A stretch of DNA of 64,000 bases from Granulicella sp. 5B5 (lineage in GTDB: Bacteria; Acidobacteriota; Terriglobia; Terriglobales; Acidobacteriaceae), in NCBI RefSeq assembly GCF_014083945.1, contig NZ_CP046444.1:1860001-1924000 (forward strand), read 5' to 3'. Below the pieces are notes generated by a model, which saw nothing but the letters and a program-made list of their open reading frames with translations, was not told where the DNA came from and did not search any database. This document shows, one piece after another, positions 4,206-45,433 of this stretch. The first letter of the stretch is position 1. Every line of letters begins with the position of its first letter. The translations under genes were made by a program, and so were the position numbers.

Positions 4206-4207
4206 CG

Positions 4208-4241
4208 TTCCTATTCCCTGTTCCCTATTCCCTGTTCCCTG
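4208..4241 (-). repeat. Heptanucleotide tandem repeat between actD and actE
   Basis: On the plus strand four exact copies of TTCCCTR occupy 4214-4241 with a shortened copy TTCCTA before them; on the coding strand this reads as purine-rich YAGGGAA units. It lies between two candidate actE starts. Because the unit is 7 bp, gain or loss of a copy would shift the reading frame from the upstream ATG and change spacing for the downstream one. Confidence 0.85.
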
Positions 4242-4243
4242 CA

Positions 4244-6235: not shown

Positions 6236-6237
6236 AC

Positions 6238-22311: not shown

Positions 22312-23502
22312 CTACTTGCTACTTGCCAAAGAACTCATCCCACACGACTCCCTCACCACCAGTTCGCAGCGCACCAGCACCTCGCGCACCGGCATCTCCG
22401 GCTGCCGCAGCCGCTCCAGCATCATGTCCATCGCCACAATGCCGATCTCCGCGCAGTTCTGCCGCAGCGTCGTCAGCGGCGTCGGCAGAAACTTCGCATA
22501 ACTCACATCGTCGATACCCACCATCCGAATGTCCTCTGGCACCTTCACGCCCAGCGACACCAGGGTCTTCATCAAACGCGCCGCGGTAATGTCATTCGCG
22601 CAGACAATCCCGTCCGGCTTATGGCGGTTCAGCACCTGTTGCACGAACTTCGCATTCTCAAAGTCCCCGCTGACCACTGACGCTCCGCAGTCTCCTTGCG
22701 CGCGAAACAGCGCCTCGCGATACCCCGCCATCCGCGCCTCCACCGTCGAAGCCGAGTTCTGGCGTACTGCGAACAAAATACGCTTCGCCCCCGCCTTCAA
22801 CAGGTGCTCGGTCAGAAGAAACCCCGCGCGGTGGTTGTCGATCCCCACCATGTCGAACCCTGACCGCCCCGGATACCGCTCAAAGTCGCGGTCCAGCAGC
22901 ACCACGGCGATCCCCGCACGCTGCAGCATCGCCGCCATCCGGTAGTTGGCCTCATCACGCATCGCCGCATACTCGGTCGGCGCAAAGAACACGCCATCCA
23001 CCTTCTGCGCGATGTACTGCTGGCACAGCCGTTCGGTCGCTTTCAGCTTGTCTGTCTCATCCAGGTTCTGGTGCCCCCACGTCAGCGAGTGCGACCGAGC
23101 CGCCGGCGACCGCATGATCCCCTGGCAGATCGGCTCAAAGATGTCCGTGCTCCCCAGGTCCGGGATCAGCAGCCCGAACTTCAGCGAGCTCTGCTCCGCC
23201 GGCTTCTCCACGTATGTCCCGGACCCCGGCCGCCGCCGCACCAGGTTGTCGCGCTGCAGATTTTGAAACGCCTTGGCCACCGTGATGCGCGAAGCCCCGA
23301 ACCGTTCGCACAGCAGGGCCTCACTCGGCAAACGTTCACCTGGCTTGTATACACCGGTTTGGATCTCTTCCAGCAGCTGTTCGTAGATCAGTCGGTGCAG
23401 CGGCGCGCTCGAGCTATCCTGGCTCGGGCTGCCGCCCCCTTTGCCCTTACCACTGACAGGCGGCGTCTTGCGGGGCTTTTGCTTCCTGGCTGATGGGCTC
23501 AT
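22312..23502 (-). CDS. GntR-family transcriptional regulator with LacI-like ligand-binding domain
   Basis: A 396-residue regulator. After a basic Ser/Gly-rich head (residues 1-30), a winged helix of the GntR type is clear: LHRLIYEQLLEEIQTGVYKPGERLPSE, then SRITVAKAFQNL and the wing RRRPGSGTYVEK. The remainder is a periplasmic-binding-protein fold as in LacI/GalR (FGLLIPDLG, GIAVVLLDRDFERYPG, DGIVCANDITAARLMKTL, VGIDDVSYAKFLPTPLTTLRQN). This architecture is that of AraR-type sugar-responsive repressors, so a sugar or sugar acid is the likely effector. The last codons (ASSK, stop) fall in a heptanucleotide repeat. A palindrome 8 bp before the start may be an autoregulatory site. Confidence 0.93.
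   Translation of the reverse strand: MSPSARKQKPRKTPPVSGKGKGGGSPSQDSSSAPLHRLIYEQLLEEIQTGVYKPGERLPSEALLCERFGASRITVAKAFQNLQRDNLVRRRPGSGTYVEKPAEQSSLKFGLLIPDLGSTDIFEPICQGIMRSPAARSHSLTWGHQNLDETDKLKATERLCQQYIAQKVDGVFFAPTEYAAMRDEANYRMAAMLQRAGIAVVLLDRDFERYPGRSGFDMVGIDNHRAGFLLTEHLLKAGAKRILFAVRQNSASTVEARMAGYREALFRAQGDCGASVVSGDFENAKFVQQVLNRHKPDGIVCANDITAARLMKTLVSLGVKVPEDIRMVGIDDVSYAKFLPTPLTTLRQNCAEIGIVAMDMMLERLRQPEMPVREVLVRCELVVRESCGMSSLASSK
22313..22326 (-). repeat. Heptanucleotide repeat over the stop codon of the GntR gene
   Basis: Two exact TACTTGC units; the stop codon TAG and the last codons are encoded by the repeat. Confidence 0.75.
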
Positions 23503-23525: not shown

Positions 23526-23794
23526 TCGTTCTATTCTTTCCCTGTCAAGCATCGACACCCGCACTGAACAGGTCGAGAGAGACACAAATATAATATGTCG
23601 CTTGAAGATATACTTACGCAATACAGCTAAGGTAATCGGCACTAACAGCCTATTCAAACTACCCTTATCTTTTGCCTTTGACCAGAGTTTTTTCGTGAAA
23701 AAGCACGGCCCCGCTCTGGCAGCGTATGATGACGATGTTTTTCGGTACTGTACGCTTGGCGGGCACTCTTGGAAGGCACCCTACAGCTCTGCTT

Positions 23795-25687
23795 ATGATC
23801 AAATACGCAATCCGATATGCGTTGGTTGCCGTCGCCGCAGCCTCCTTTCTGAATACCGCCCATCTTCAGGCCCAGACCCCGCTTGAGTCCCAAAAGGGCT
23901 CGGCGCAGGAAGGCGCTCAGCCCGCCGCCAGGGGTGGTTCCGCCGACGCCGGCGTCTTCCCCCCGGTCCTCGACGCCGAGCACCGTCCCATCACCGCGGG
24001 CGGCACCGTCAAAACCGGCCCCATCATCTTTCAGGACATCGCGAAGAAGGCCGGCCTCACCACCTGGCACCACGTCATGGGCTCGCCCCAGAAGCGCTAC
24101 ATCCTCGAGTCCATCGGCTCCGGCGTCGCCCTGCTCGACTACGACAACGACGGCTGGCTCGACATCTACCTCGTCAACGGCAGCACTCAGGCCGCCATCG
24201 ACAGCAAGTCCATGCCCCCGCACGCCGCCCTCTTCCACAACAACCACGACGGCACATTCACTGACGTCACCGAGAAGGCCGGCGTCGCCAACGATCGCTG
24301 GGGTTTTGGAGCAGCAGTCGCCGACTACGACAACGACGGCTGGCCCGACATCTATGTCTCCAACTTCGGCAAGAACCGCCTCTATCACAACAACCACGAC
24401 GGCACGTTCACCGACGTCGCCGAGAAGGCCGGCGTCCAGCTCGGCAACTGGTCCACCGGCGCCACCTGGGGCGACTACGACGGCGACGGCAACCTCGACC
24501 TCTTCGTCCCCGGCTACGTCCACTACGACCTCTCCAAACAGACCACCGCCTCCGACGGCATTCCTCTCGCCTTCTGCAGCTACCGCGGCGTCAAGACCAT
24601 CTGCGGTCCGCGCGGCCTGCCCGGCGAAGGCGATCATCTCTTCCACAACAACGGCGACGGCACATTCACCGACGTCTCCGAACGCGCCGGCGTCTCCGAC
24701 AAGCCCGGCTACTATGGCCTCACCTCGCTCTTCATCGACGTTAACAACGACGGCCGCGTCGACCTCCTCGTCGGCAACGACTCCACCCCCAACTACCTCT
24801 ACATCAACAAGGGCGACGGCACCTTCGACGACGAGAGCTACCCCTCCGGCTACGCGCTCGATAAGAACGGCCGCGAGACCGCCAGCATGGGCATCGCCGT
24901 CGGCGACTACCGCAACAACGGCCAGCTCGACATCTTCAACACCACCTTCTCCGACGACTACAAGGTCCTCTACCGCAACGACGGCGATGCCAACTTCACC
25001 GACGTCTCCGACGACCTCCACATCGCTGCCCTCACCATTCCCTTCCTCGGCTGGGGCACCGCCTTCCTCGACTACGACAACGACGGCTGGCAGGACCTCC
25101 TCGAAGTCGACGGCCACATCTACCGCAACGCCGACGCCAACAACTGGGGCACCACCTGGGCGCAGCGCCCTCTGCTCTTCCACAATGAGCAGGGCAAAAA
25201 AATCGCACCCGTGCCCGCCGTCGAAGACACAGCACTCGCCGAGACCTACACCTCACGCGGCCTCGCCGTCGGCGACCTCTTCAACGACGGCCGCGTAGAC
25301 GCCGTCGTCAACAACATCGACTCCGTACCCGCGCTCTTCCGCAACGTGGACAAGAACGATAACCACTGGGTCGCCTTCCACCTCATCGGCAGCGGCCAGC
25401 CCTTTGGCCCTGACGGCCTCAAGTCCTCACGCGACGCCATCGGCGCAACCCTCTACCTCACCGCCAACGGCATCAAGCAGCGCCGCGACATCTTCTCCGG
25501 TGGCAGCTTCGCCTCCACCTCCGACATGCGCCCCCACTTCGGCCTCGGCTCCTCAACCAAAGTCGACGCCCTCGAAGTCCGCTGGCCCAGCGGCCGCGTC
25601 GAAACCTTCCCCATCCCCGCCATCGACTGCCTCCAGACCCTCACCGAAGGCAAAGGCACCGCCGTGACTCCCACAGCCAAGCCATGA
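23795..25687 (+). CDS. Exported FG-GAP repeat protein with ASPIC/UnbV domain (CRTAC1 family), copy 1
   Basis: About 630 residues from ATG 23795 (MIKYAIRYALVAVAAASF, signal peptide ending LQAQ). A beta-propeller of FG-GAP/VCBS-type repeats follows, each with calcium-loop motifs such as DYDNDGWLDIYLVNG, DYDNDGWPDIYVSNFG, DYDGDGNLDLFVPG and DVNNDGRVDLLVGND. The C-terminal ASPIC/UnbV domain is visible as GATLYLTANG and HFGLGSSTKVDALEVRWPSG. Members are secreted calcium-binding scaffolds of unknown chemistry. It heads a plus-strand group with a pentaheme cytochrome-TPR protein and a monoheme cytochrome. An upstream ATG at 23726 is unlikely. Confidence 0.9.
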   Translation: MIKYAIRYALVAVAAASFLNTAHLQAQTPLESQKGSAQEGAQPAARGGSADAGVFPPVLDAEHRPITAGGTVKTGPIIFQDIAKKAGLTTWHHVMGSPQKRYILESIGSGVALLDYDNDGWLDIYLVNGSTQAAIDSKSMPPHAALFHNNHDGTFTDVTEKAGVANDRWGFGAAVADYDNDGWPDIYVSNFGKNRLYHNNHDGTFTDVAEKAGVQLGNWSTGATWGDYDGDGNLDLFVPGYVHYDLSKQTTASDGIPLAFCSYRGVKTICGPRGLPGEGDHLFHNNGDGTFTDVSERAGVSDKPGYYGLTSLFIDVNNDGRVDLLVGNDSTPNYLYINKGDGTFDDESYPSGYALDKNGRETASMGIAVGDYRNNGQLDIFNTTFSDDYKVLYRNDGDANFTDVSDDLHIAALTIPFLGWGTAFLDYDNDGWQDLLEVDGHIYRNADANNWGTTWAQRPLLFHNEQGKKIAPVPAVEDTALAETYTSRGLAVGDLFNDGRVDAVVNNIDSVPALFRNVDKNDNHWVAFHLIGSGQPFGPDGLKSSRDAIGATLYLTANGIKQRRDIFSGGSFASTSDMRPHFGLGSSTKVDALEVRWPSGRVETFPIPAIDCLQTLTEGKGTAVTPTAKP

Positions 25688-25990
25688 CAATCATGCCCCT
25701 AAAAGCTCGTCATCTCGACCGAAGGCGGAGCGTAGCGGAGACGCAGCGGAGAGACCCCTGTATTTTTCGCAGCATGCTTCCAACAGACTCCACCTTTCGA
25801 TGGAGCTAGACATCCACCCATCGGCTCGCTGACAACCATCCGATCTGCGATGTAGTGTTGATGGGTTCACAGGATGCACGCAAGGCGTGGGGCAGAATCT
25901 GTTTTGAAGGGGATGGGCTTTAGCCCGTCCGAAAGCAATGCCAGGAAAGATAAGGGGCTTTAGCCCCGGAGCGCTTCCAAAGCAATCACC
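25688..25990. repeat. Repeat-filled spacer between the FG-GAP and pentaheme genes
   Basis: No gene. It holds a GTCATCTCGACCGAAG...GGAGAGACC dispersed element (25709-25755, related to 42043-42094) and two TTTA-loop hairpins, GGATGGGCTTTAGCCCGTCC at 25911-25930 and GGGGCTTTAGCCCC at 25954-25967. Confidence 0.75.
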
Positions 25991-28330
25991 ATGAAGCTCG
26001 CCCTCTCAATCCGCAAGCTGCTCGCCGCAATTTTTCTCACCGCTGCGACGGCCATCCTTCTCGCCCCGCACACAGTCCGCGCTCGCGCCACCGACGACGA
26101 CACCCACGCCGAAGCCCGTGCCGCCTACAACAAAAAGATCGCAGCCATCTACAACTACAAGTTCGGCGAACAGCACCCCTTCTACCCCTCCAACGCCACC
26201 ACCGACACCGGCGCCTTCATCGACCCCAAGGACTTCCCCACCGCCGCCTACTGCGGCCACTGCCATCAGGCCGCGCACGCCCAGTGGCGCGAGTCCGCCC
26301 ACTCCAACTCCAACCGGGTCCCCTACTACCTCCGCAACGTCAACCTCCTCGCGGCTGAAAAAGGCATCGCCTACACCCGCCACTGCGAAGGCTGCCACGA
26401 CCCCATCTCCGTCGTCTCCGGCGCACTCACTGAGAGGTCCCCGCGCACCCGCCCCTACGACCAGGACGGCGTCACCTGCATGGTCTGCCACTCCATCCAG
26501 TCCGGCACCACGCGCGGCACCGGCAGCTACGTCATGGGTATCCCCGCCGTCATGGTCGACGAAAACGGCAACCCCATCCACCACGCCGTCTCCGACGCGG
26601 AGATCCTCGCTCACCTCGACCGCCACTCCGCCGCGGTCATGAAGCCCTTCTACAAGACCAGCCAGTTCTGCTCCGCCTGCCACGAAGCCGCGCTCCCCAA
26701 AATGCTCAACGACTACAAGTGGCAGCGCGCCATCTCGCTCTATGACGAGTGGCAGAACTCCTCCTTCGCCAAGCAATCGCCGCTGCCCTTCTATCACAAG
26801 CCCGTCGTCTCCACCTGCCAGACGTGCCACATGGCGCGCGAGGCCATAGGCTCGCTCTCCGATTACAGTGCCAAGTCCATCGACGGCGGCCCCAAGTCCA
26901 TCGTCTCCCACCGCTGGCTCGGCGCCAACACCTCCATCCCCAAGATCTATCACTACCCTGACCAGGCCCGCCTCGTCACCGAGTTCCTCCAGAACCAGGT
27001 CTTCAACGTCGACATCTTCGGCGTCGAGAAAGAGCCTAAAAACTTCAACACACCCGCCGCCGAGCTCGCTGAAAACTCCGTGAACGGCAAGCTCATCGCC
27101 CCTCTCGGCACCGTGCCGTTCTCGCTCGACGCCGGCCAACGCGTCGTCGTCTCCGTCGTCATCCAGAACAAGGGCATCGGCCACTCGCACGTCCCTGAGC
27201 AGCGCGATATGTACGAGTCCTGGGTCGACTTCACCGTCAAGAACACCGCCGGCAAAACCCTCTATGAGTCCGGCGCGATTCAGCCCAAAGACGACGAGCT
27301 CGATCCCTCCGCGCACAGCTTCACCAACCGCCTCATCAACAAGCAGGGCAGCCTCAACGCGCTCCACCAAGTCTGGGACAACCGCGTCGTCGCCTACAAC
27401 AACACCGTCCAGTCCGGCCGTTCGCAGCTCGTCCGCTACGCCTTCACCATGCCCCGCGATGGCAGCCCTGTCTCTGTCACTGCCACCGTCCGCTACCGCC
27501 GCTTCGATCAGCACTTCATGGACTTCGGCATGAGCGTCCCCATCGGCCAGGGCCACTGGCAGCAACCCATCGTGGACATGGTCTCCACCACCCGCATCTT
27601 CAAGTCCGGCTCAAACGACCCCATTCCCAATCCCGATCCCAAGTCCGTCAACCCCGAATGGATGCGTTGGAACAACTACGGCATCGGCCTGCTCGACGCG
27701 CAACAGTATGCCGCCGCCGTCTCCGCCTTCGAGCGCGTCGCCGCCATGCACCCCGACGACTTCGACCCGCCCACCAACATCGCCGTCACCTACATCGCCT
27801 GGGAGAAGTACGACGACGCCGTCCCCTACCTCAACAAATCGCTCGCGCTCAAAAAGGACAATGCCCGCGCGCTTTACTATCTTGCTCTCGTGCAGCGCAA
27901 CTCCGGCGACGTCAACGAGGCCATAGCCAACCTGCAGAAAGTCGCGGCCGCCTTCCCTGATTCTCTCGACGCCCATCGCGAGCTCGGCTTCTCCTACTAT
28001 CAGCTCCACAACTACGCGCAGGCCCGCACCGAGTACGAGCTCGTCCAGTCCATCGCGCCCGACAACCTCGCCGCCCACTACAACCTCGCCATCATCTACC
28101 GCCGCCTGCACCTCAAGGACCAGGCCGCCGTCGAGGCCGCCTACTTCGCCGACGAGAAAGACGACCCCACCGCCTCCACCTACGCACTCGAGTACCTCCG
28201 CAAGCACCACGACATCGCGCAGGAGTCCGTCCCCTGGCATGTCCACGACCTCGACCACCACGGCGCCGACGAGCTCAACCCCATGCTCCCCGCCAGCGAC
28301 TCCGGCTCCGTCACGGGCGGCAGCCACTAG
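25991..28330 (+). CDS. Exported pentaheme cytochrome c with C-terminal TPR domain
   Basis: A 779-residue protein with a signal peptide (to about residue 33, VRARA). Five CXXCH sites lie in the N-terminal third: CGHCH, CEGCH, CMVCH, CSACH and CQTCH; spacing resembles cytochrome c-554-type multiheme proteins (QAAHAQWRESAHSNS after the first). A beta-rich region around residues 370-530 follows (VVVSVVIQNKGIGHSHVPEQ). From about residue 550 there are several tetratricopeptide repeats (YAAAVSAFERVAAMHPDDF, YDDAVPYLNKSLALKKDN). It ends 18 bp before a small cytochrome c gene. Periplasmic or surface electron transfer with the TPR part as docking platform is inference. No Shine-Dalgarno is obvious. 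Confidence 0.88.
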   Translation: MKLALSIRKLLAAIFLTAATAILLAPHTVRARATDDDTHAEARAAYNKKIAAIYNYKFGEQHPFYPSNATTDTGAFIDPKDFPTAAYCGHCHQAAHAQWRESAHSNSNRVPYYLRNVNLLAAEKGIAYTRHCEGCHDPISVVSGALTERSPRTRPYDQDGVTCMVCHSIQSGTTRGTGSYVMGIPAVMVDENGNPIHHAVSDAEILAHLDRHSAAVMKPFYKTSQFCSACHEAALPKMLNDYKWQRAISLYDEWQNSSFAKQSPLPFYHKPVVSTCQTCHMAREAIGSLSDYSAKSIDGGPKSIVSHRWLGANTSIPKIYHYPDQARLVTEFLQNQVFNVDIFGVEKEPKNFNTPAAELAENSVNGKLIAPLGTVPFSLDAGQRVVVSVVIQNKGIGHSHVPEQRDMYESWVDFTVKNTAGKTLYESGAIQPKDDELDPSAHSFTNRLINKQGSLNALHQVWDNRVVAYNNTVQSGRSQLVRYAFTMPRDGSPVSVTATVRYRRFDQHFMDFGMSVPIGQGHWQQPIVDMVSTTRIFKSGSNDPIPNPDPKSVNPEWMRWNNYGIGLLDAQQYAAAVSAFERVAAMHPDDFDPPTNIAVTYIAWEKYDDAVPYLNKSLALKKDNARALYYLALVQRNSGDVNEAIANLQKVAAAFPDSLDAHRELGFSYYQLHNYAQARTEYELVQSIAPDNLAAHYNLAIIYRRLHLKDQAAVEAAYFADEKDDPTASTYALEYLRKHHDIAQESVPWHVHDLDHHGADELNPMLPASDSGSVTGGSH

Positions 28331-28348
28331 CTCCGCGCCCCTTATAGA

Positions 28349-28759
28349 ATGTCCTCTGTGTACACTCCCTTTGCGAAACATGGCTCACTCTGCGTACTCT
28401 GCGTGAGCGCTTTGGCCTTTGCTTTCGTCCTCCATCAGCCAAAGACCGTCACCGCCTCTTCCACAGCGCGAGCCCGCGGGGCAGAGCTCTTCGCCACCCG
28501 CGGCTGCGCCCACTGCCACGGCACCGACGGCGTCAACGGAGAGATCGGCCCCGACCTACAGCTCGTCCGCAAGCGCATGAACGCCGCCCGCATCTTCGCC
28601 CAGATTCACGACGGCAGCAAAGACATGCCCGCCTTCGCCGACTCTCTCTCCACCCCGCAGATCGACGACCTCGTCGCCTACCTCCGCACCAAACGCAAAC
28701 ACATCATCCCACCACCTCCACCCACAAAACCTGCCGCCACCGACCCCAACAGCAACTGA
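28349..28759 (+). CDS. Monoheme cytochrome c, exported
   Basis: A class I-like cytochrome c of 136 residues with one heme site, RGCAHCHGTDG, and a candidate axial Met in GSKDMPAFAD. The tail is Pro/Lys/His-rich. Residues 11-31 (GSLCVLCVSALAFAFVLHQ) act as signal peptide; the DNA coding this part resembles dispersed sequence near 39975-40020, suggesting it grew out of repeat DNA. It would shuttle electrons for the pentaheme protein encoded 18 bp upstream. It converges with the next FG-GAP gene, 85 bp away. Confidence 0.87.
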   Translation: MSSVYTPFAKHGSLCVLCVSALAFAFVLHQPKTVTASSTARARGAELFATRGCAHCHGTDGVNGEIGPDLQLVRKRMNAARIFAQIHDGSKDMPAFADSLSTPQIDDLVAYLRTKRKHIIPPPPPTKPAATDPNSN

Positions 28760-28844
28760 CTTCCTGCGTACCCGACAACACGGCCGTGGCGAAACTTGGC
28801 CCACTTCGCGAACGTGGCGGGAAGGCTTTGATCCTCCCTCCGTA

Positions 28845-30617
28845 CTACCTCGCTCCGGCCAGCTTCCCCTTCCCCTCGGTCAGCTCCACAAACCGATCCA
28901 CACCATCCACCGCAAACATCTCGCTCTCCCCATTCGGCCACCGCACCTCGATCGCAGCGATCTTCGTCTCCGCGCCCAGCCCAAAGTGCAACCGCAAATC
29001 GCTTGAGCTCGAATAGCTCGACCCGCTCCGCACCTCATCCACCCAGCAGCGTTTCGTGCCACGCACCGTCACCCGAGCCCCAATCCCATCGCGGTTCGAC
29101 GTCGTACCCACCAGCCGCACTCCCAGCCAATGGTTCGTGTTCGAAGCCTCATTCACCAGCAGCAACGGCAGCTCGCTCAGGTTGTTCACCACCACCTCCA
29201 ACCGCCCATCGTTCCACAGGTCGCCCACCGCCAGCCCGCGCCCTGATAGCGGCTCCGTCATCCCCGGGCCACTGACCTGCGACACATCCTTGAACTTCCC
29301 GTTCCCCTGGTTCCAGTACAAAAACCGCGGCTCCTTGAACTTCGTCCCCAGATTGTCCTTATCGACCTCTGGATACACATGCCCGTTCGCCACCAGCAGG
29401 TCAGGAAATCCGTCATTGTCCACATCGGTAAACATCGTCCCCCAACCCAGCGCATCGAGGTTCCTGCCCAACCCCGCGGCAAACGTCACATCCTCAAACG
29501 ACCCATCGCCGTGGTTCCGATACAGCGTCGCCGTATCGTCTGAGAAGTTCGTCTTGAACAAACTGATGTGCCCATCGCCAATGTAGTCCGCAGCGGTCGA
29601 CCCCATCCCCGCCTGTTCGCGACCGTCCTCATTGAACGCCACGCCCGCATCCGCACCCACATCCGTGAACGTCCCATTGTGGTTGTTCTTATACAGCGCC
29701 GAAGGCGTCGAGTCGCACGCCACATAGATGTCCGGCCAGCCATCTTCGTTGTAGTCCAGCGTCGTCACCGAGAAGCAGTAATGCGCATACGTCTTCTCGA
29801 TCCCGCTCGCCGCGCTTACATCCTTAAACTTGCCGCCGCCCTCATTGTGATACAGAATGTTCTTCGCGCTCGGCAGCCCACGCGGCCCGCACATCACCGG
29901 CGCTCCCTTCCACATGCAACCTGCATCCGCGCCCGGCGCAGGCGTCGTCGCAAGGTCAAAGTGCACATAGTTCGACACCATCAGGTCGAGCTTGCCATCG
30001 CGGTCATAGTCCACAAATGCGCAGCCCGTGCCCCACTCCTTGCCTGTGCCAGCCACGCCCGCCTGCTCGGCCACATCGGTAAACGTGCCATTGCCGTTGT
30101 TGTGATACAGCCGGTTCTTCCCATAGTCCGTAACGTAGAGATCGTCCCATCCATCGTTGTCATAGTCCCCAACACAAACCCCCTGCCCCCACGCAGTCTG
30201 TATCAGCCCAGCCTTCGCCGTCACATCGGTAAAGGTCCCATCATGGTTGTTATGGAACAGATGGCTCGTCGGCGGACTCTTCTCCTTGGCATCGTCCTTC
30301 AGCTCCTGCCCATTCACCAGAAAGATATCCGGCCACCCATCGCGGTCATAATCAATAATCGCAACACCCGACCCCGTCGCCTCCACAATGTAGCGCTTGT
30401 TCGTCGCACTGCCATTCACGTTCATCACCTGGATGCCCGCCTTCGCAGCCACATCCACAAACCACGCCGGCGTCGGATGTTCCGCGCTCGCCGGATACAC
30501 CTTCTGCTGCATCTGCGCTCTCGACAACCCATACAACATCAAAAATACAGCGACAACCGCACAAGCCCGCGCCACTGCACCCGCTCTTGCTTTTGCCGTT
30601 GCTTTTCTTTCTGTCAT
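28845..30617 (-). CDS. Exported FG-GAP repeat protein with ASPIC/UnbV domain (CRTAC1 family), copy 2
   Basis: From ATG 30617 (MTERKATAKARAGAVARACAV begins the signal peptide, cleaved after about SRAQ) the protein has 590 residues. Repeats carry DYDRDGWPDIFLVNG, DYDNDGWDDLYVTDYG, DYDRDGKLDLMVSNYV and DVDNDGFPDLLVANG; the ASPIC/UnbV end shows GIGARVTVRG and HFGLGAETKIAAIEVRWPNG. The open frame also extends to a GTG at 30686 that overlaps the upstream gene's stop (GTGA), but those 23 extra residues are encoded by a dispersed repeat. Either start puts repeat-derived sequence at the N-terminus. Same family as the genes on both sides. Confidence 0.88.
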   Translation of the reverse strand: MTERKATAKARAGAVARACAVVAVFLMLYGLSRAQMQQKVYPASAEHPTPAWFVDVAAKAGIQVMNVNGSATNKRYIVEATGSGVAIIDYDRDGWPDIFLVNGQELKDDAKEKSPPTSHLFHNNHDGTFTDVTAKAGLIQTAWGQGVCVGDYDNDGWDDLYVTDYGKNRLYHNNGNGTFTDVAEQAGVAGTGKEWGTGCAFVDYDRDGKLDLMVSNYVHFDLATTPAPGADAGCMWKGAPVMCGPRGLPSAKNILYHNEGGGKFKDVSAASGIEKTYAHYCFSVTTLDYNEDGWPDIYVACDSTPSALYKNNHNGTFTDVGADAGVAFNEDGREQAGMGSTAADYIGDGHISLFKTNFSDDTATLYRNHGDGSFEDVTFAAGLGRNLDALGWGTMFTDVDNDGFPDLLVANGHVYPEVDKDNLGTKFKEPRFLYWNQGNGKFKDVSQVSGPGMTEPLSGRGLAVGDLWNDGRLEVVVNNLSELPLLLVNEASNTNHWLGVRLVGTTSNRDGIGARVTVRGTKRCWVDEVRSGSSYSSSSDLRLHFGLGAETKIAAIEVRWPNGESEMFAVDGVDRFVELTEGKGKLAGAR

Positions 30618-30654
30618 TCCGAGCGCAGCGAGGAACCTGCTTCTTGCGCGAGCG
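30601..30654. repeat. 54-bp dispersed repeat, copy 2, overlapping a start codon
   Basis: Differs from 14806-14859 at only 2 of 54 positions. Reverse orientation relative to the flanking minus-strand genes. Its internal CAT (30615-30617) supplies the ATG preferred for the copy 2 FG-GAP gene. Confidence 0.85.
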
Positions 30655-30682
30655 GAGCGAGCGCTAGCTGCTTCAGCAAATC

Positions 30683-32578
30683 TCACTTCGCCGCCTTCTC
30701 AACAACCCCACCCATCGCCACCGCCCGCAAAATCTTCCCACCCTCCTGCACCACATACAGATGGTTCGCCGCAAGGTCCTTCAGCGAGTCCCTCGTCCCC
30801 GAGGGCCACGCAATCGTCACCTCATCCACCTTCACCGCCTGGTCCAATCCAAAGTGCATCCGCAGATCGTTCTGCGAGTAGTAGCTCCCGCCGCTGCGCA
30901 CCTCATCAATCTGCTTCATCGGCTGTTTGCACACGCCACTCATCGCCTGCGGAGCCGTCGTCGCCGTCACCGTAATCCGCGCGCCAATTCCCGTCCGATT
31001 GCTCTTCGTCCCCACCAGCTTGATCTTGATCCAGTTCCGCTGAATCCCATTCATGAGAACAGCATCGCACCGCAGCAGCTGCGGCACGGCATTCACACAG
31101 TTCACAACTACATCCATATCACCATCATTGTCATAGTCCCCGATTGCGCACCCCCGCGCCGGAACAGCATCCGTCATGCCGCTGCCCGCCTTGCTCGTCA
31201 CCTCTTCAAACTGCCCATTGCGCAGGTTGCGATACAAATACTTGTGCTCTGCATATGGCGCATCGAGGTGCGAACCATCCACCTCCGGATACACATGCCC
31301 ATTCGAAATCAGGATGTCCAACCAGCCATCATTGTCCACATCCACAAAGCTCACGCCCCAGCCAAGATACCGCGTATTGATCCCCAGCCCCGAAAGATAC
31401 GTGTGGTCCTCAAACGATCCATCGCCTAGGTTCTCATACAGCGAATCTGTATCGCCCGCGAAGTTCGTCTTCACAATATCCAGCAGCCCATCGCGATTGA
31501 AGTCCCCCACCGCAACACCCATGCCCGCCTGCGGCTTTCCATCAGGCGAGTACGCAATCCCCGCCTCAATCGCAACATCCTTGAACGTGCCGTCCTTCTG
31601 GTTCTGGTAGTACGTCGCCGCCGTCGAGTCGTTCGCAACATAAATATCCGGCCAGCCATCGTTATCAAAGTCCGCCACCGTCACGCTCAGCCCATACGTG
31701 CCGATCGTGTCCCACATCCCCGCCTTCTGGCTCACATCGGTGAATGTGCCATCGCCGTTGTTGTGATACAGAATGTTCTTCCCGCCATCCAACCCCGGCG
31801 GCCCGCACGCCACCTGGATGCCCTTGTACTCGCACCCCGCGGCCTCCGGCAGCGGCGCCGTCTTGATGTCGAAGTCGATATAGTTCGCCACAAACAAATC
31901 GAGATGCCCGTCCTTGTCGTAGTCCAGAAACGCACACCCCGAGTTCCACCGCGTCTTCGACTGTGTCAGTCCAGCCTTCGCCGTCACATCCGTAAACGTG
32001 CCATCGCCATGGTTCTTATAAAGGATCGGCTGCCCGTAATAGCTCACAAACAGATCGTCGAGCCCATCGTTGTCATAGTCGCCCACGCAGCAACCCTGCC
32101 CCCAGCCCGACCGCGTCATCCCTGTCTTCGCAGTGATATCGGTAAACGTGCCATCGCGATTGTTCTTGAACAACCGGCTGATCGGCTCCTGCCCCTTCGG
32201 AAACCCCTCCAGCCGTGTGCCATTCACCAGAAAAATATCGAGCCAGTCATCATGGTCGAAGTCATAAAACGCAACGCCACATCCAGTCGTCTCCAGCAGA
32301 AAGCGGTTCTTATGCTCATCGCCATAGATGGTCTTCGCATGCAGCCCGCTCTGCTTCGCTACATCCACAAAGCTGAACCCCAGCGGCATCCCCGTCACCG
32401 GCGAAGGCAGCGTCTTCGGCGCGGGCCTCGGCTTCGCATCATAGCTCGGCCTGGCTCCGATCTGCGGCACCTGTTGCTGCGCTCCCGCAGGCATGGCGAG
32501 CTTCAGCACATCCTCAAACGGCAACACCAGCGCCGTGCGAGAGAGAGACCTGATAAATCCGCGTCGCGTCCAAATCAT
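30683..32578 (-). CDS. FG-GAP repeat protein with ASPIC/UnbV domain (CRTAC1 family), copy 3, Tat-like signal
   Basis: ATG 32578 has a good GAGAGGACGAG ribosome site and gives 631 residues starting MIWTRRGFIRSLSRTALVL, a twin-arginine-like signal. The propeller carries DFDHDDWLDIFLVNG, DYDNDGLDDLFVSYYG, DYDKDGHLDLFVANYI, DFDNDGWPDIYVANDS and DVDNDGWLDILISNG. The ASPIC/UnbV end shows GIGARITVTATT and HFGLDQAVKVDEVTIAWPSG. A Tat signal would mean export after folding, unlike the two sister proteins. It lies 58 bp after the TPR gene and runs straight into copy 2 with overlapping stop and GTG. Confidence 0.9.
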   Translation of the reverse strand: MIWTRRGFIRSLSRTALVLPFEDVLKLAMPAGAQQQVPQIGARPSYDAKPRPAPKTLPSPVTGMPLGFSFVDVAKQSGLHAKTIYGDEHKNRFLLETTGCGVAFYDFDHDDWLDIFLVNGTRLEGFPKGQEPISRLFKNNRDGTFTDITAKTGMTRSGWGQGCCVGDYDNDGLDDLFVSYYGQPILYKNHGDGTFTDVTAKAGLTQSKTRWNSGCAFLDYDKDGHLDLFVANYIDFDIKTAPLPEAAGCEYKGIQVACGPPGLDGGKNILYHNNGDGTFTDVSQKAGMWDTIGTYGLSVTVADFDNDGWPDIYVANDSTAATYYQNQKDGTFKDVAIEAGIAYSPDGKPQAGMGVAVGDFNRDGLLDIVKTNFAGDTDSLYENLGDGSFEDHTYLSGLGINTRYLGWGVSFVDVDNDGWLDILISNGHVYPEVDGSHLDAPYAEHKYLYRNLRNGQFEEVTSKAGSGMTDAVPARGCAIGDYDNDGDMDVVVNCVNAVPQLLRCDAVLMNGIQRNWIKIKLVGTKSNRTGIGARITVTATTAPQAMSGVCKQPMKQIDEVRSGGSYYSQNDLRMHFGLDQAVKVDEVTIAWPSGTRDSLKDLAANHLYVVQEGGKILRAVAMGGVVEKAAK

Positions 32579-32636
32579 CTCGTCCTCTCTCCCAGCAGAA
32601 GTATGGTGACCCTCAAAGATCGCCACTCGCCTCGCA

Positions 32637-33698
32637 TCAGTGCTGCGTGTCGATCCTCGGCTCACTCGCCTGCTGTATCTTCTCTGCCTTCTCCGTCTCA
32701 CGCGCCGCGTCTTCTACGCGCCCCATCGCCCTGTACGCCTGCCCCAGCAGACTATGGGTCCGAAAGTTCTGCGGGTCGAGCTGCTCCGCGTGTTGCAGAT
32801 ACGTCAGCGCAGCCACCGCATCGCCCTTCTTCAACATCGTCTTCCCCAGCGAGATATACGGCCCCGTCGCATTCGGCTCAAGCAGGATCGACGCCTGCAG
32901 GTTACGCTGCGCGTCGTCATACTTCGCCGCCCGGTTATACGCTTCGCCGAGTCCCGCATACACACTAGGCTCCAGCGGATTATTCACCTTCTCCTTTTCC
33001 AGCTCCGCAATCGCCTCATCGAGATGGTCCCCCGCCAGTGCAATCTCACCCAGCAACTCATGCGCCAGCGGCAGGTTCGGATTGATCGCCAGCGCCTTCT
33101 GCGCAAAGCTCTGCGACACCGGCAGATACTCCCGCCGCAACAACATCCGCGCCGCGATCAGGTACGCTGCTGCGCCATCCGGAGCGAAGCCATATTGCGC
33201 CGCAAACGCATGGCGAGCATCGTCATACCGTCTCGTGTCCATATAGCAGAGCGCAAGAATATAGTTGGGATCAGCCTTTCCCAGCGCGCCCTGCTTGCCC
33301 GCCGCCTCCAACAAAGGAATCGCATCCGCGGGCCGCCCCAACCGAAACAGCGTAAGCCCACGCATCTGCGACGACTCCACATCATGTGGGTCTTCAAACA
33401 GCGCCGCCGCAAACGCCTTATCGGCAGCATGCAGATCGCCCAACTGATACTCTGCAAGCCCCTCGAGCCGGTTCAGCCCGGCCATAACGCCGTGCCCTGC
33501 ACGCAGCGTCGCAATCTGCTTCAAAGCAAGGTCTGCATGTCCCATGTCGATGCTATGGCGAACGGTCTTGGCATCCAGCGAATCAGCGGAAGTTGCGCCT
33601 GCCGCACTCTGCGCACGCATCAACGAGCACGAAAGCAGGCACACAGCCACCGCGCTCATAAGAGCGCACAGACCGCGAACCGAAGAAGATCGAAACAT
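32637..33698 (-). CDS. Exported TPR-repeat protein
   Basis: ATG 33698 gives MFRSSSVRGLCALMSAVAV, a signal peptide ending LMRAQ, and 353 residues. Tetratricopeptide repeats fill most of the protein (LADKAFAAALFEDPHDVESSQ-like helices, YDDAQRNLQASILLEPNATG, AVAALTYLQHAEQLDPQN). The open frame reaches back to 33791 but that part overlaps the preceding terminator. It is the first gene of a minus-strand unit with two ASPIC/UnbV proteins, suggesting that it serves as their assembly or docking partner in the periplasm; that role is inferred from context. Confidence 0.85.
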   Translation of the reverse strand: MFRSSSVRGLCALMSAVAVCLLSCSLMRAQSAAGATSADSLDAKTVRHSIDMGHADLALKQIATLRAGHGVMAGLNRLEGLAEYQLGDLHAADKAFAAALFEDPHDVESSQMRGLTLFRLGRPADAIPLLEAAGKQGALGKADPNYILALCYMDTRRYDDARHAFAAQYGFAPDGAAAYLIAARMLLRREYLPVSQSFAQKALAINPNLPLAHELLGEIALAGDHLDEAIAELEKEKVNNPLEPSVYAGLGEAYNRAAKYDDAQRNLQASILLEPNATGPYISLGKTMLKKGDAVAALTYLQHAEQLDPQNFRTHSLLGQAYRAMGRVEDAARETEKAEKIQQASEPRIDTQH

Positions 33699-33763
33699 GC
33701 TGAAAAAGCCCCACAGACCTTTGCTGATCAAACTACTACAGTCGCCGTACCAGTAAAAGCAAA

Positions 33764-33793
33764 GGGTGAAGGGAGATCGCTCTCCCTTCACCC
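33764..33793 (-). terminator. Intrinsic terminator of the third Oar-like receptor gene
   Basis: A perfect 13-bp stem (GGGTGAAGGGAGA with 33781-33793) around TCGC, followed on the minus strand by TTTGCTTTT. It lies 17 bp after the receptor stop, so the TPR-FG-GAP unit downstream probably has its own promoter. Confidence 0.85.
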
Positions 33794-33810
33794 GTTTGCA
33801 GTATGGCGGG

Positions 33811-36800
33811 TTAGAACGCTAAGTGCAGTGTGAACTGCAACTGGCGCGGGTTGGTCGTGCCATTCGGCCCGGGGCCACCGCCAATCGAGTTGCCGTTCTG
33901 AATATTGCCGCCCGGGTTCTCAAAATTGATGTGGTTGAAGGCGTTGAACGCATCCATGCGGAACTGCACCGTGTAGCGCTCATGGAAGGTCACATTCTTC
34001 ATGATGGACATATCGCTGTTGAACAAACCAGGACCCCAGGCCGTATTGCGCCCGGCGTTGCCGATAGTATCCAGACCCGGATCGGTGAAGGTCGTCCCCA
34101 GTGTCTGCTGCTGGAAGAACGTGACGCCGGTCGGGCCGCCAGGAAATCCCTTGACCCCCGTGTGCAACGACGAAGGATTGCCGTTGACCTGGCATGGAGC
34201 ATCGCCAGGCAGATCGTTGCCGCAGCCGCTGAATGACAGCGTGAATGGCAAGCCGCTCTGCCACACAAACGTGGGGCTGTACTCCCAACCGCCGACGATA
34301 TAGTTCAGCGCCCTGTTGCTGTTCAGGAACTTCTGGTCTTTGCCGAAAGGCAGCTTGTACAGGCCATAGGCTGTGAACGCGTTGCGGCGAATGGAGCTGT
34401 CATTTCCGATCACAGCCTGCTTGTTCCACGTGGCAAAGCTGCTGTTCGCATCGCGGCCTCGCTGGTAAGCGTAGTTCGCATTGACCGAAAGCCCGTGCGC
34501 GTACGTCTTCGCCAAACTGACCTGCAGTGAGTTGTAATGAGTGTCCTGGTCATCGCCGTAGTAGCTGATAGCCTGCGTCCAGTTACAAGCTGCCCCGCCG
34601 CACGCTGGCAGTGTGCCATTTGTATAGCGTTGCAGCAGCGTCTGGTTGCTGGTTGCGCCCGTCGTCGTACTTACAGGATTGGTACAACCCGCCGTGCCGG
34701 CAAGGCAGGTGCCACCAGCCGGATCGAAGTGCAGCGCCTGGTTCGTCGTCACATTGAACGATGCCGGAAGCGAGATCGCCGCCTCATTCGGATTTGTGGT
34801 ATTGCCACTCAAATCGCTGAGAGTATGGGTTCCCTTGTTGGCAACGTAGGCCACCGTCACCGTGGTAGTCGGTGTGATGGACCGCTGTACGCTGAAGTTC
34901 CAGGCATCCAGTGTCGGCAGCCGCTCTGTAAACGGACGCGCCTTCATATTGACCGAACCGCCAGCCGTTGCGCAGTTGGCACCGGCTTGCGAGCAAGGAA
35001 CATCGGCTCCCAGTGCACTGGTGCCCGGAATTGGTGCCGTGACCGGGATCTGGCCCTGCGCGTTCGCCGCGACAGGCGTGTAGTTCACCAGCCCCGCGGA
35101 GTTCGTGCCGCTTACCGCCGGATTATCCAACTGGAACGCGTAGCTCTGGGCACCGTTCAGAGAGGAGATCGACTGGTTCGCCAGAACGGGAATGTTCTGC
35201 GTGACCACATGGCCGAACTCCGAGCCGAAGACACCAAGATCGAAGCTGCGCCCATAACCGGCCCGGATGACCGTCTTCTGGTCGATCTGGTAGGCCACGC
35301 CGAGACGGGGGTTCCAGGTGTTCTTCGCTGCCGCCACGCCCATGTTGAGCGGGATGCCGCCTTCACCTGCCACATTGAGGTAGCCCGTAGCCAGGTTCAG
35401 CAGAGCGCCGTTACCTTTACCGTTCACGCGTTCCGGAGCGTAGTACTCATAGCGTGCGCCGACGTTCACCGTCAACTTGGGAGTTGCGCGCCAGGTGTCC
35501 TGTCCGTAGAAGAAATCCCGTGGCTGGAATTCCTTTGCGTTCAGCTCGCTCGGCGTGCCCGCATACCGGTTGAAGCTGGTCACGTCACCCAGAACCAGGC
35601 TCGCGAAACCGAGACCGCCCGTCGATCCATTTGACGTGGGGCCTGTGCCGAAGTTGTTCAAGCCGGTGCGGTCCGAATCCGACGGTACGCGCAAGTTGCG
35701 AGCGTAACGCAGATCGATACCAACCTTGACGGAATGATTGCCGATCGTCCTCGTCCAGTTGTTCACAAGCTGGAACTGGTCTTCACGCTCCGTCAATGGG
35801 CAGTTGCAGCGATTGATGTTCAAACCGGCGCCGTACTGCGCTCCTCCCCCTGTTGGGTTGTTCGGGCTTGCAGTCGGGTTCGTGACGTTCAGGTCCGAGA
35901 TATTGAAGCCCGGCGCGCCGAAGTCCTGCGCCACCGTGAGTGACGCGTTGGCTCCCGTGCCGCTCACGTTCTCGCCCTGGATGGGCAGGTTCGTGTTGCC
36001 GGTATCGTACTTCGCGGTGGTGATGCCATAACGGAAGTAGCCGAGTCGAACGTCTGTCACCAACTTGGAGTTGATGGCGATGTCCGTGCCGAGCGCGACG
36101 CTGTCGTTTGCGCCCTTGGACGTGCCGCCATAGCCGCCCAGACCGAAGCCCGGGCCACCCGCGTTGCCGAACATCGTCTTGCCGGTCAGCGTATCGGTAA
36201 AGCGGCTGAAGCGCCCGAAGATGTGTATCTTCTCGTTCAGCACCGCATCACCGCGAACGTCCCATTGGTCACTATTGAAAAGACCTGAGCCGCTGCCCGC
36301 GTAGTTCTGCGAAAACCCGCCATCTGTACCCGCCGTGTTTGGCGCGTACGGCTGAAGCAGTTTGAGCAGCTGTAGCGCCGCTGGCGAAAGGGCCGAGTTC
36401 GGGATGATCGCGTTCGGATACGGCGTGGTGCTGTTGGGCTCGTAGATCTGGTACGGGTTGTACGATACGCCTGTGCTCGTCGTTGCCGGGTTCGCCGCGC
36501 CGTAGTTCACATACTCACTGAAGTCACACCCATTGCCGCTCAGGCAGGTGGTAATCAGGTGCGAGGTCGGCACGGTCGCCGTGCTGGCGATACCCACCTT
36601 CTGACGAACACCCTGGTAGTCGCCAAAGAAGAAGACCTTATCTTTGATGATCGGCCCGCCGATCGAACCGCCGAACTGGCTCTTGATGCCGCCCGGGAAA
36701 CCGCCGCTCGAAGCAAGCTGCGTCGGTCCCTGCTGGAACGGATCGCGTGCCAGGTTGGCATTGCTCTCGCGATTGTCGAACACCGTTCCGTGGAACTGGT

Positions 36801-37572
36801 TCGTACCGGACTTCGTCTGGATTGTATCCACCGAAGCGACGGCCTTGCCGAACTCCGCGTCGAAGTTCTGCGTGGCAATCTTCGCCTCCGACATCGACTC
36901 CGAGTTCGGATTGATAACGATAATGCCCAGGACCGCATCCTGATTGTCCGTGCCGTCCAGCGTGTAGTTCACACCCGCAAACGCCTGGCCGTCGATCTCG
37001 ATTTGCTTCGAACCCTGCGGGTTTTCATCCGCGGCGTGTGACCAGCCCAGTTGCACCGCGCCTGGCAGCAGCAACTGCAGGTTCGCAAAGTTGTGGTCCG
37101 GAATCGGCAGCTCAGTCAGCTCCTGCGCCGTGTAGGTCACTGCGACGTCAGCGTGGTCTGTCTTGAGTTGCGGCACCGCATCGGCGTCCACCTCCACCGT
37201 TTCGCCGTTTGCCGCGCCAACTGGCAACACCGCCTTCACCGTCGCCGAATCGTCGGCAAAGACCTGAAGTCCCTTCGCTTCATACCCCTTGAAGCCCGCA
37301 GCTGTGACCTTTACGTCGTAGGTGTCCGGAATAAGGTGTTGCGCTGTAAACTCACCCGCGCCGTTGCTGGTAAGGGTCACCGCTGTATTCTTCGTGACGT
37401 CCGTGACCGTAATCGTCGCGCCCGGAACCGCCGCGCCTGTCGAATCGGTCACGCTGCCCAGAATCTGGCCATAGACCGCCTGCGCTGCCGCGCTTGGCCC
37501 CGATGCCAGAAAGGCGGCCGCGGCGGCCATCAACAGCGGTAGCTTCGCCCCCTTGATCCAGTTCTTGTACAT
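33811..37572 (-). CDS. Oar-like TonB-dependent receptor family protein, 1253 residues
   Basis: Starts MYKNWIKGAKLPLLMAAAAA after a GGAGGACTAGAT ribosome site; signal peptide to about residue 31. The regulatory-like domain reads LGSVTDSTGAAVPGATITV. The plug region has the less usual ELPIPDHNFANLQLLLPG in place of the LPLNGR loop, followed by ADENPQGSKQIEIDGQAF. The barrel ends LQFTLHLAF, the expected aromatic terminus. Several Cys pairs occur in the barrel half (CSQAGANC, CLAGTAGC, CGGAAC), likely disulfides in extracellular loops. The 457 bp upstream are shared with a divergent GH13 gene, suggesting common control. Confidence 0.9.
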   Translation of the reverse strand: MYKNWIKGAKLPLLMAAAAAFLASGPSAAAQAVYGQILGSVTDSTGAAVPGATITVTDVTKNTAVTLTSNGAGEFTAQHLIPDTYDVKVTAAGFKGYEAKGLQVFADDSATVKAVLPVGAANGETVEVDADAVPQLKTDHADVAVTYTAQELTELPIPDHNFANLQLLLPGAVQLGWSHAADENPQGSKQIEIDGQAFAGVNYTLDGTDNQDAVLGIIVINPNSESMSEAKIATQNFDAEFGKAVASVDTIQTKSGTNQFHGTVFDNRESNANLARDPFQQGPTQLASSGGFPGGIKSQFGGSIGGPIIKDKVFFFGDYQGVRQKVGIASTATVPTSHLITTCLSGNGCDFSEYVNYGAANPATTSTGVSYNPYQIYEPNSTTPYPNAIIPNSALSPAALQLLKLLQPYAPNTAGTDGGFSQNYAGSGSGLFNSDQWDVRGDAVLNEKIHIFGRFSRFTDTLTGKTMFGNAGGPGFGLGGYGGTSKGANDSVALGTDIAINSKLVTDVRLGYFRYGITTAKYDTGNTNLPIQGENVSGTGANASLTVAQDFGAPGFNISDLNVTNPTASPNNPTGGGAQYGAGLNINRCNCPLTEREDQFQLVNNWTRTIGNHSVKVGIDLRYARNLRVPSDSDRTGLNNFGTGPTSNGSTGGLGFASLVLGDVTSFNRYAGTPSELNAKEFQPRDFFYGQDTWRATPKLTVNVGARYEYYAPERVNGKGNGALLNLATGYLNVAGEGGIPLNMGVAAAKNTWNPRLGVAYQIDQKTVIRAGYGRSFDLGVFGSEFGHVVTQNIPVLANQSISSLNGAQSYAFQLDNPAVSGTNSAGLVNYTPVAANAQGQIPVTAPIPGTSALGADVPCSQAGANCATAGGSVNMKARPFTERLPTLDAWNFSVQRSITPTTTVTVAYVANKGTHTLSDLSGNTTNPNEAAISLPASFNVTTNQALHFDPAGGTCLAGTAGCTNPVSTTTGATSNQTLLQRYTNGTLPACGGAACNWTQAISYYGDDQDTHYNSLQVSLAKTYAHGLSVNANYAYQRGRDANSSFATWNKQAVIGNDSSIRRNAFTAYGLYKLPFGKDQKFLNSNRALNYIVGGWEYSPTFVWQSGLPFTLSFSGCGNDLPGDAPCQVNGNPSSLHTGVKGFPGGPTGVTFFQQQTLGTTFTDPGLDTIGNAGRNTAWGPGLFNSDMSIMKNVTFHERYTVQFRMDAFNAFNHINFENPGGNIQNGNSIGGGPGPNGTTNPRQLQFTLHLAF

Positions 37573-44884: not shown

Positions 44885-45433
44885 ATGAGCCTTACCATGA
44901 CAAGCCGTCTACGCTCGCTCATCACCGCAACGCTCATCGTTATCCTCGGAACCGTCGCGGCCTGCGCGCAGACTACCGCAGCGCCCGCGCCCGGCCTGCT
45001 CAACCGCACCGAAGCCGCGGCCATTCTTCCCGCAAAGGTTTTCTTCCGCGGTCAGTCCGCCACCATTCAGGGACGCAACTCCGCAGGCATCCGCGTAGCC
45101 GACGGTAAGCTCATCCTCTTTACCGTCGTCGACACCTCCGGCTACTCCTCTGCCATCCAGCAGAACTACCAAGCCTATCTCCTCACCGAAGTCCCGCTGC
45201 ACATCGGCGACCACACACTCGCTCCCGGCGCCTACGGCTTCGGCTTCATCGCCAACAATCAGATGATCGTCATGGACATCGGTGGCAACGAACTCTTCCG
45301 CACCGCCACCGTGCATGACGCTGAGATCGCTCGCCCGACGCCTTTGCAGCTTCTCGCGCAACCCGGCAGCGCGGACCACTATCGTCTCTACCTCGGACGC
45401 ACTTATGTTGTCCTCTCGCCCGTCTCAAAGTAA
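44885..45433 (+). CDS. Exported protein of unknown function
   Basis: A 182-residue protein with a signal peptide ending ACAQ (about residue 29). The mature part is predicted to be mostly beta: FFRGQSATIQGRNSAG, GKLILFTVVDTSGYSSAIQQ, YQAYLLTEVPLHIG, LAPGAYGFGFIANNQMIVMDIGG and ADHYRLYLGRTYVVLSPV. No catalytic or metal motif is seen. A second ATG at 44897 is equally good because AGGATGAG lies 7 nt before it. It stands 5 bp before a TPR gene and shares a unit with it and a heptaheme cytochrome, so it may be a partner of that system. Confidence 0.78.
   Translation: MSLTMTSRLRSLITATLIVILGTVAACAQTTAAPAPGLLNRTEAAAILPAKVFFRGQSATIQGRNSAGIRVADGKLILFTVVDTSGYSSAIQQNYQAYLLTEVPLHIGDHTLAPGAYGFGFIANNQMIVMDIGGNELFRTATVHDAEIARPTPLQLLAQPGSADHYRLYLGRTYVVLSPVSK

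Follow-up and report, generated by a model that had tools for sequence, protein, structure and literature searches.

The window analysed here, a stretch of 64,000 nt from Granulicella sp. 5B5 (NZ_CP046444.1; genome of 3.93 Mb in one contig), carries a gene cluster in which ASPIC/UnbV propeller proteins are encoded beside a pentaheme cytochrome that ends in tetratricopeptide repeats (TPR). Seven genes follow one another at 23726-37572 without another gene between them, at distances of -65 to +303 bp. On the forward strand, UnbV1 (23726-25687; PF13517, PF07593) is an exported FG-GAP propeller with an ASPIC/UnbV domain, for which 23795, the start given in a previous sequence-only reading, is a plausible later start codon. 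It is followed by the cytochrome-TPR gene (25991-28330; TPR models, Cytochrome_C554/C7 and five CXXCH motifs) and, 18 bp further, by the gene of an exported monoheme cytochrome c (28349-28759; PF13442). The reverse strand encodes the exported ASPIC/UnbV propeller UnbV2 (28845-30686; PF13517, PF07593), a third ASPIC/UnbV propeller, UnbV3 (30683-32701; PF13517, PF07593), with a Tat-like RRGFIRSL start and a likely start codon at 32578, an exported TPR protein (32637-33791; TPR families) and an Oar-like TonB-dependent receptor (33811-37572; PF25183, PF13620). The sequence-only reading had described such a cluster without unrelated genes, and this description holds: all named genes are present and the Pfam matches of the main genes are all above cut-off. 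The N-termini, which were judged by eye, are of exported type, hence separate compartments of the products are not indicated.

All three window propellers are ASPIC/UnbV (CRTAC1-type) proteins, with UnbV_ASPIC and FG-GAP matches above the curated cut-off. The model of UnbV1 (predicted local distance difference test, pLDDT, 85.0; predicted TM-score, pTM, 0.85) has murine CRTAC1 (9etn) as its top fold match (E 2.4e-30), followed at far lower scores by fungal GlcNAc-binding lectins and aldos-2-ulose dehydratase. Asp, Asn and Gly make up most of the invariant residues of the UnbV proteins, as would suit calcium sites, and a redox cofactor signature is absent. In a tree of 134 UnbV proteins, the window propellers fall into three separate groups: the UnbV1 group has 49 members (34 encoded directly upstream and 3 directly downstream of the cytochrome-TPR gene), the UnbV2 group 10, and the UnbV3 group 38, with 21 directly downstream of the cytochrome and 31 carrying a Tat-like RR motif. 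Up to 30 UnbV matches occur per genome among 74 genomes, and no function of bacterial ASPIC/UnbV proteins was found in the literature searched. The bacterial members share with CRTAC1 the FG-GAP propeller and the ASPIC/UnbV domain, with a strong fold match, but are here co-encoded with a multiheme cytochrome; to our knowledge, vertebrate CRTAC1 has no such partner. A comparable gene neighbourhood is found in hydrazine-synthase-like loci, in which, according to PMC12758564, a CRTAC1/FG-GAP gene lies beside the subunit genes or between them. The likeness lies in a CRTAC1-type gene placed beside genes of heme-bearing extracytoplasmic proteins; those of the loci in that source are hydrazine synthase homologs.

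The cytochrome-TPR protein contains CXXCH at residues 88, 132, 163, 227 and 276 and no further cysteine. Its AlphaFold2 model (63 sequences; pLDDT 85.9, pTM 0.86) is made up of a pentaheme cytochrome part (residues ~79-540) and a C-terminal TPR part (~556-738), the latter matching many TPR structures. By E-value, the top Foldseek match is 5ze8, the pentaheme cytochrome c552 of Thermochromatium tepidum (E 2.4e-10), and the VIA comparison with 5ze8 aligned 338 residues within residues 79-537 of the model (Z 15.6; root-mean-square deviation 3.5). By Z-score, 5ze8 stands at rank 21, with TPR chains ahead of it. Because the cytochrome domain alone gives weak sequence matches in the PDB (1bvb, E 0.056; 5ze8, E 0.22), the assignment to a cytochrome family rests on the predicted fold. 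With its five heme motifs and the beta domain of that fold, the protein is predicted to be a pentaheme cytochrome of the TtC552/PHC type, and it scores 18.7 bits against the NCBIfam cut-off of 250 for the ExtKL equivalog (NF040886).

Outside the CXXCH motifs, H104, H212, H307, H398 and D406 are invariant in all 62 cytochrome-TPR sequences compared, and likewise in 31 out of 31 of a set that includes the 20 homologs from a second phylum described below. The CXXCK motif, which marks the active-site heme of NrfA-type nitrite reductases, is found in none of the 62 homologs nor in the window protein. Five hemes and four invariant candidate histidine ligands may leave room for one open heme. This would suit an alternative explanation that makes the pentaheme protein the enzyme, acting through one open heme as a reductase or peroxidase, with UnbV as a calcium-stabilised partner; the pair would serve small-molecule reduction or detoxification. 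The part of PMC11976967 at hand describes a pentaheme family of cable bacteria, together with ExtKL and Gsu2801, that resembles c552, has an Ig-like domain and is counted among the potentially catalytic cytochromes with open hemes, which lends this explanation some support. We nevertheless consider it quite improbable, as CXXCK is missing throughout, ligands could be supplied by less conserved residues (e.g., H131 or H459), and likeness of fold shows no activity. In the same part of PMC11976967, TtC552 is linked to the archaeal nanowire AvECN. With Thermochromatium c552 and the PHC/ExtKL family of cable bacteria and Geobacter, as described there, the window family shares five hemes followed by a beta domain (Ig-like in that family); it differs by its C-terminal TPR and its UnbV partner, to which distant forms add a hydrophobic N-terminus with four histidines.

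The own genome holds 8 UnbV matches, 2 cytochrome-TPR genes of the window type, both with a UnbV neighbour, and 48 Oar-type barrel matches above 200 bits. Linkage was compared with 5000 rotations of the UnbV set, some gene ends being rounded. Four of the 8 UnbV genes lie within 3 kb of a cytochrome-TPR gene, against a null mean of 0.044 (reached in 3 of 5000 rotations). For TPR genes, the counts are 6 of 8 within 2 kb (null 0.35; 1 of 5000) and 3 of 8 within 500 bp (null 0.21; 30 of 5000). The link with Oar-type barrels is the weakest because the genome holds so many of them: 6 of 8 within 5 kb (null 1.2; 39 of 5000) and 4 of 8 within 2.5 kb (null 0.89; 115 of 5000). Adjacency between TPR and Oar genes is also weak, with 3 of 23 within 300 bp (678 of 5000 rotations), 4 of 23 within 1 kb (417) and 6 of 23 within 2 kb (86). 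TPR and UnbV are fused in a single protein in the own genome (L020:10853-14815) and in another locus (L121:16125-19664), a direct support for the association of TPR with propellers. On these fusions, the docking of propellers by TPR parts, put forward in the sequence-only reading, appears plausible.

Among relatives, a cytochrome-TPR homolog (E≤1e-60) occurs in 70 of 396 genomes of the phylum. From 84 such matches outside the own genome, 60 were fetched as loci, the remaining 24 lying outside the set; with the two loci of the own genome they form a set of 62. A separate set of 73 named loci overlaps with the survey, as L089, L099 and L103 apparently repeat L032, L038 and L040. A UnbV gene lies within 500 bp of the cytochrome-TPR gene at 39 of the 60 loci (0.27 expected from copy number) and within 5 kb at 42 (1.1 expected). 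On the same strand and within 700 bp, UnbV is found at 40 of 62 loci, the own two included, and at 37 of the 73 named loci, with a 4-bp overlap of the two genes in 6 of those 40 and 6 of those 37. Every one of the 23 other f1 genomes that have the cytochrome (E≤1e-60) also has UnbV, as do 11 of the 20 f1 genomes listed as lacking the cytochrome. A cytochrome c-like gene stands directly 3′ of the cytochrome-TPR gene in 19 cases among the 62 survey loci and in 25 among the 73 named ones. It may be noted that at about 20 loci (e.g., L094, L097, L102, L104 and L109; Terracidiphilus- or Occallatibacter-like) the cytochrome-TPR gene has no adjacent UnbV and lies near apparent NADH dehydrogenase genes, a subunit of which was confirmed once, in L102.

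A chance cluster of families abundant in Acidobacteriota would agree with the 48 Oar-type barrel matches, the roughly two dozen TPR genes and the weak TPR-Oar neighbourhood of the own genome. However, with only 8 UnbV and 2 cytochrome-TPR genes, a pairing at 39 of 60 loci against 0.27, a linkage reached in 3 of 5000 rotations and recurrence in a second phylum, chance is rejected for UnbV and the cytochrome-TPR protein and is left with next to no likelihood for the cluster. The expectation of the sequence-only reading that these families cluster beyond their copy number is thus borne out by the neighbourhood survey for UnbV with the cytochrome.

Distant homologs of the cytochrome-TPR protein (L065-L081 and those of the second phylum) have a long form, mostly of ~850-1000 residues with a few of 665-691. 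Counted by a plain Kyte-Doolittle window, 3 to 6 hydrophobic segments precede the first heme at 16 of the 17 loci L065-L081 and at 19 of the 20 loci L179-L198; the exceptions, L065 with one segment and L187 with none, both look truncated. In the window-like group of 45, which includes L063 and L064, one such segment is found in 43 proteins and none in 2. When the long N-termini are aligned, histidines 71, 89, 144 and 158 (L077 numbering) are present in 35, 32, 35 and 32 of 35 sequences, respectively. Two histidine pairs on two helices of a helix bundle are the pattern of diheme b cytochromes. The spacing of the four histidines fits the ligands of two b hemes, as a quinone-linked cytochrome b would have them; no Pfam model above cut-off covers this N-terminus among the rows listed for the 8 proteins scanned. 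Known quinone-linked membrane cytochromes include those of the NapC/CymA type and b-type subunits of respiratory enzymes. Like these, the long form would join the quinone pool to extracytoplasmic c hemes, but as a single-chain fusion of a putative b part, a pentaheme c part and TPR, and its N-terminus, without a Pfam match above cut-off in those rows, has no counterpart in the window member.

The second phylum, apparently Bacteroidota, is that of the genome behind L145 (a 3.2 kb contig, possibly mis-binned), and 20 of its 296 genomes, including that of L145, hold a cytochrome-TPR homolog at E≤1e-30. Among 20 loci from 19 of these genomes, 10 have an adjacent UnbV on the same strand (L179-L185, L194, L195 and L197). 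Six of them (L179-L184) also carry TPR genes and a receptor with a low Oar-profile score (26-87 bits), for which Pfam confirms the carboxypeptidase-regulatory and plug domains in L183. Lipoprotein-like starts are seen on several of the UnbV and TPR proteins. In all 20 homologs (L179-L198), the first heme motif is CX4CH in place of CXXCH. Two further genes of L183 lie between the receptor and the TPR-cytochrome-UnbV genes: one encodes a 745-residue protein without Pfam match (4085-6322) and the other (6335-7393) a protein that weakly matches outer-membrane families, including PorV.

In the window, the neighbourhood extends beyond the seven genes. Upstream lies the reverse-strand gene of a fusion protein with a GntR-type DNA-binding domain and a LacI/periplasmic sugar-binding domain (22312-23502; PF00392, PF13377), a probable sugar-responsive regulator. 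Of the 16 relative stretches compared, 8 encode a homolog of it, 54-68% identical, in the matching locus. Downstream of the receptor, the forward strand encodes an exported GH13 enzyme of the alpha-glucosidase/glucosyltransferase type (38030-39901; PF00128), nearest in the PDB to the alpha-glucosyltransferase 6aav and the alpha-glucosidase 3wy1, and a second exported GH13 enzyme (40100-41881; PF00128), with homologs of 67-71% identity in the locus of five relatives. They are followed by an exported debranching-type glycosidase on the reverse strand (42374-44821), without Pfam match and nearest to the amylo-alpha-1,6-glucosidase 7vma (E 1.4e-9). Next on the forward strand come a small exported protein without Pfam match (44885-45433), whose cluster is present in 14 of the compared loci, a second TPR protein (45439-47229; TPR families), 47-50% identical to the first operon gene in L033-L037, and, 19 bp further, a heptaheme cytochrome with TPR (47249-48970; seven CXXCH by motif count), a homolog of which two relatives (L158 and L162) carry in the matching locus. 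The unit is larger than the sequence-only reading drew it, its neighbourhood taking in the regulator, the two GH13 enzymes, the debranching-type enzyme, the second TPR protein and the heptaheme-TPR cytochrome; each of them has homologs in the matching locus of relatives.

Exported glycosidases of one substrate class thus stand with a sugar-type regulator, and this arrangement is kept in relatives. The polysaccharide utilisation loci of Bacteroidota are of the SusC/SusD type, with which the window locus shares a TonB receptor, exported glycosidases, a sugar-type regulator and a helical-repeat protein beside the receptor. It differs from them in its multiheme cytochromes, in its receptor, which is Oar-like by its CarboxypepD_reg domain and OMP_b-brl_4 barrel, and in the protein beside the receptor, which at E≤0.001 has matches to TPR-type repeat families and none to a SusD model. 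Homologs of this TPR protein (32637-33791), at 58-68% identity, adjoin Oar in relatives. The polymer of the window locus is most likely an alpha-glucan. Of the polymer or mineral substrate suggested in the sequence-only reading, the GH13 and debranching-type genes favour the polymer and not the mineral. Other sugar genes border the module elsewhere: single loci have neighbouring trehalase, GH43, arabinofuranosidase, GH35/42-like, GH88 or cyclomaltodextrinase-type genes; a GMC oxidoreductase, a gluconate-dehydrogenase subunit 3 and a sugar-isomerase-like protein lie beside the module in L023, L024 and L086 (one member per cluster scanned); and L182 has 3-keto-disaccharide hydrolase, Gfo/Idh and isomerase-like genes. 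These neighbours suggest a link to sugar oxidation.

In genus g4, four genomes (L034-L037) have a single same-strand row, TPR-UnbV3-UnbV2-UnbV1-cytochrome-TPR-cytochrome c, next to a block whose members are identical to those of the window at 60-64% (debranching-type), 65-71% (two GH13), 54-55% (GntR-LacI), 53-68% (Oar) and 59-62% (TPR). The window, from genus g1, has the same genes in another order, therefore the linkage has outlasted rearrangement. An Oar relative (E≤1e-200) was found in 17 of 45 genomes searched. Fourteen of these 17 have a GH13 gene no more than 10 kb from it. With coordinates read by hand, a cytochrome-TPR gene lies within ~25 kb of it in 9 of the 13 genomes holding both; in three of the other four the two are on different contigs and so count neither way, and in G359 they are far apart. 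The receptor adjoins the module, as the sequence-only reading had it, but tracks GH13 more closely than the cytochrome, so it need not belong to the unit. Given also the weak TPR-Oar adjacency, strict membership of the receptor in the redox unit was not upheld.

These distances also speak for an alternative in which two modules share the site, an alpha-glucan uptake system (Oar, TPR, UnbV2, UnbV3 and GH13) and an unrelated redox set (UnbV1, cytochrome-TPR and cytochrome c) acting on another substrate. It would further account for the second cytochrome-TPR/UnbV pair of the own genome (L017), which stands apart, and for the distant loci L063-L081, which have no constant sugar enzyme among their neighbours. 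On the other hand, the relatives of all three UnbV, the second TPR protein, the cytochrome-TPR protein and cytochrome c form the one row beside the GH13/Oar block in L034-L037, and the genes are linked both in that order and in the differing order of the window. We therefore regard two independent modules as a serious but rather doubtful explanation.

The explanation that we favour, tentatively and at slightly less than an even chance, is an envelope electron-transfer module of UnbV propellers and a pentaheme-TPR cytochrome, which here lies within an alpha-glucan locus. In its core, an ASPIC/UnbV propeller would be co-produced with a pentaheme c-type cytochrome ending in TPR and may form a complex with it, assisted by further TPR proteins. 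The long form, perhaps the ancestral one, would use its membrane start and probable diheme-b bundle to exchange electrons with the quinone pool. In the window family, which lacks the membrane part, the protein would be exported in soluble form, and the small neighbouring cytochrome c probably shuttles the electrons. After recruitment of the module into the alpha-glucan locus, the exported debranching and alpha-glucosidase enzymes would cleave the glucan, the propellers and TPR proteins would bind or present sugar or enzymes at the outer membrane, product uptake would fall to the Oar receptor, and the cytochromes would pass electrons from extracytoplasmic sugar oxidation to respiration. The sequence-only reading had proposed electron exchange or oxidative attack; of the two, it is an electron-transfer role that is supported by the predicted pentaheme fold and the membrane N-terminus of distant homologs. 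A wider possibility, on the doubtful side, is a cross-phylum respiratory machine in which a single-chain diheme b-pentaheme c-TPR conduit would trade electrons with a substrate-binding or catalytic UnbV, the window protein being a soluble derivative captured by the alpha-glucan locus.

Extracellular electron transfer to minerals, or a surface cytochrome filament, could be invoked instead, as outer-membrane receptors lie close by and the fold relative TtC552 is related to the nanowire AvECN in the part of PMC11976967 at hand. Nevertheless, sugar enzymes dominate the surroundings in the window and no porin-cytochrome conduit of the MtrCAB type turned up in general neighbour scans, which were not aimed at it, making this use of the cytochromes very improbable.

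Several observations weigh against an electron-transfer module tied to UnbV and to sugar. UnbV is absent within 500 bp at 21 of 60 cytochrome-TPR loci and within 5 kb at 18, and two genomes (G051 and G063) carry a cytochrome-TPR homolog and no UnbV match. In the second phylum, L187-L193 have no UnbV, L198 has a weak one 1.6 kb off, that of L196 is on the opposite strand, and L186 ends at a contig edge. The loci share descent, so that their counts are not independent trials. An Oar relative is found without a cytochrome-TPR gene (E≤1e-60) in G217, G352, G382 and G394, and the two are far apart on one contig in G359. Among the genes of the window locus no sugar dehydrogenase was recognised, the second cytochrome-TPR locus of the own genome (L017) has no sugar genes among its listed open reading frames, and the GMC/gluconate-dehydrogenase pair is found at only three loci and the 3-keto-sugar genes at one (L182). 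In a Pfam census of the neighbours of L063-L081 (96 of 108 candidates; first 25 families listed), TPR families were the commonest (6 of 96). A second neighbour census (99 of 231; first 25 families) gave TPR in 8 of 99, again the commonest, alpha-amylase in 4 and GH43 in 3, as raw frequencies with no background rate. No constant enzyme was seen among the neighbours scanned in either census.

The gene set was not found described in the titles or abstract openings of the literature searched, most subscription journals lying outside it. ASPIC/UnbV proteins are common in Acidobacteriota, and their role becomes testable through a frequent gene partner whose predicted fold is one of electron transfer. 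Should the cross-phylum machine exist, bacterial CRTAC1-type proteins would gain a function, the redox processing of bound glycans. The partnership with the cytochrome would also give the glycan-use loci of soil bacteria a respiratory arm and tie outer-membrane receptors to electron flow.

Some further features of these loci deserve mention. The heptaheme-TPR family adjoins UnbV in L026, L027 and L168 and is hence a second multiheme-TPR family that pairs with UnbV. In the window, another Oar barrel is encoded past the sugar enzymes at 49076-52867 on the reverse strand, near the forward-strand genes of the second TPR protein and the heptaheme-TPR cytochrome, and further Oar barrels lie upstream of the module, as does the GntR-LacI regulator. 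Small proteins without Pfam match recur beside the module (L049:8366-8875, L151:15422-15919, L089:1392-1994 and 44885-45433 in the window). A Reg_prop/Y_Y_Y sensor kinase (L037:11248-14244; cluster of 25 loci) and a putative response-regulator cluster also recur near it. About 13 kb from the module, the reverse strand of the window (390-10301) encodes an SCO1-like protein, a protein without Pfam match, a cytochrome c, an NrfD-type membrane protein, an iron-sulfur protein and a multiheme cytochrome, a gene row that we take to resemble an alternative complex III operon.

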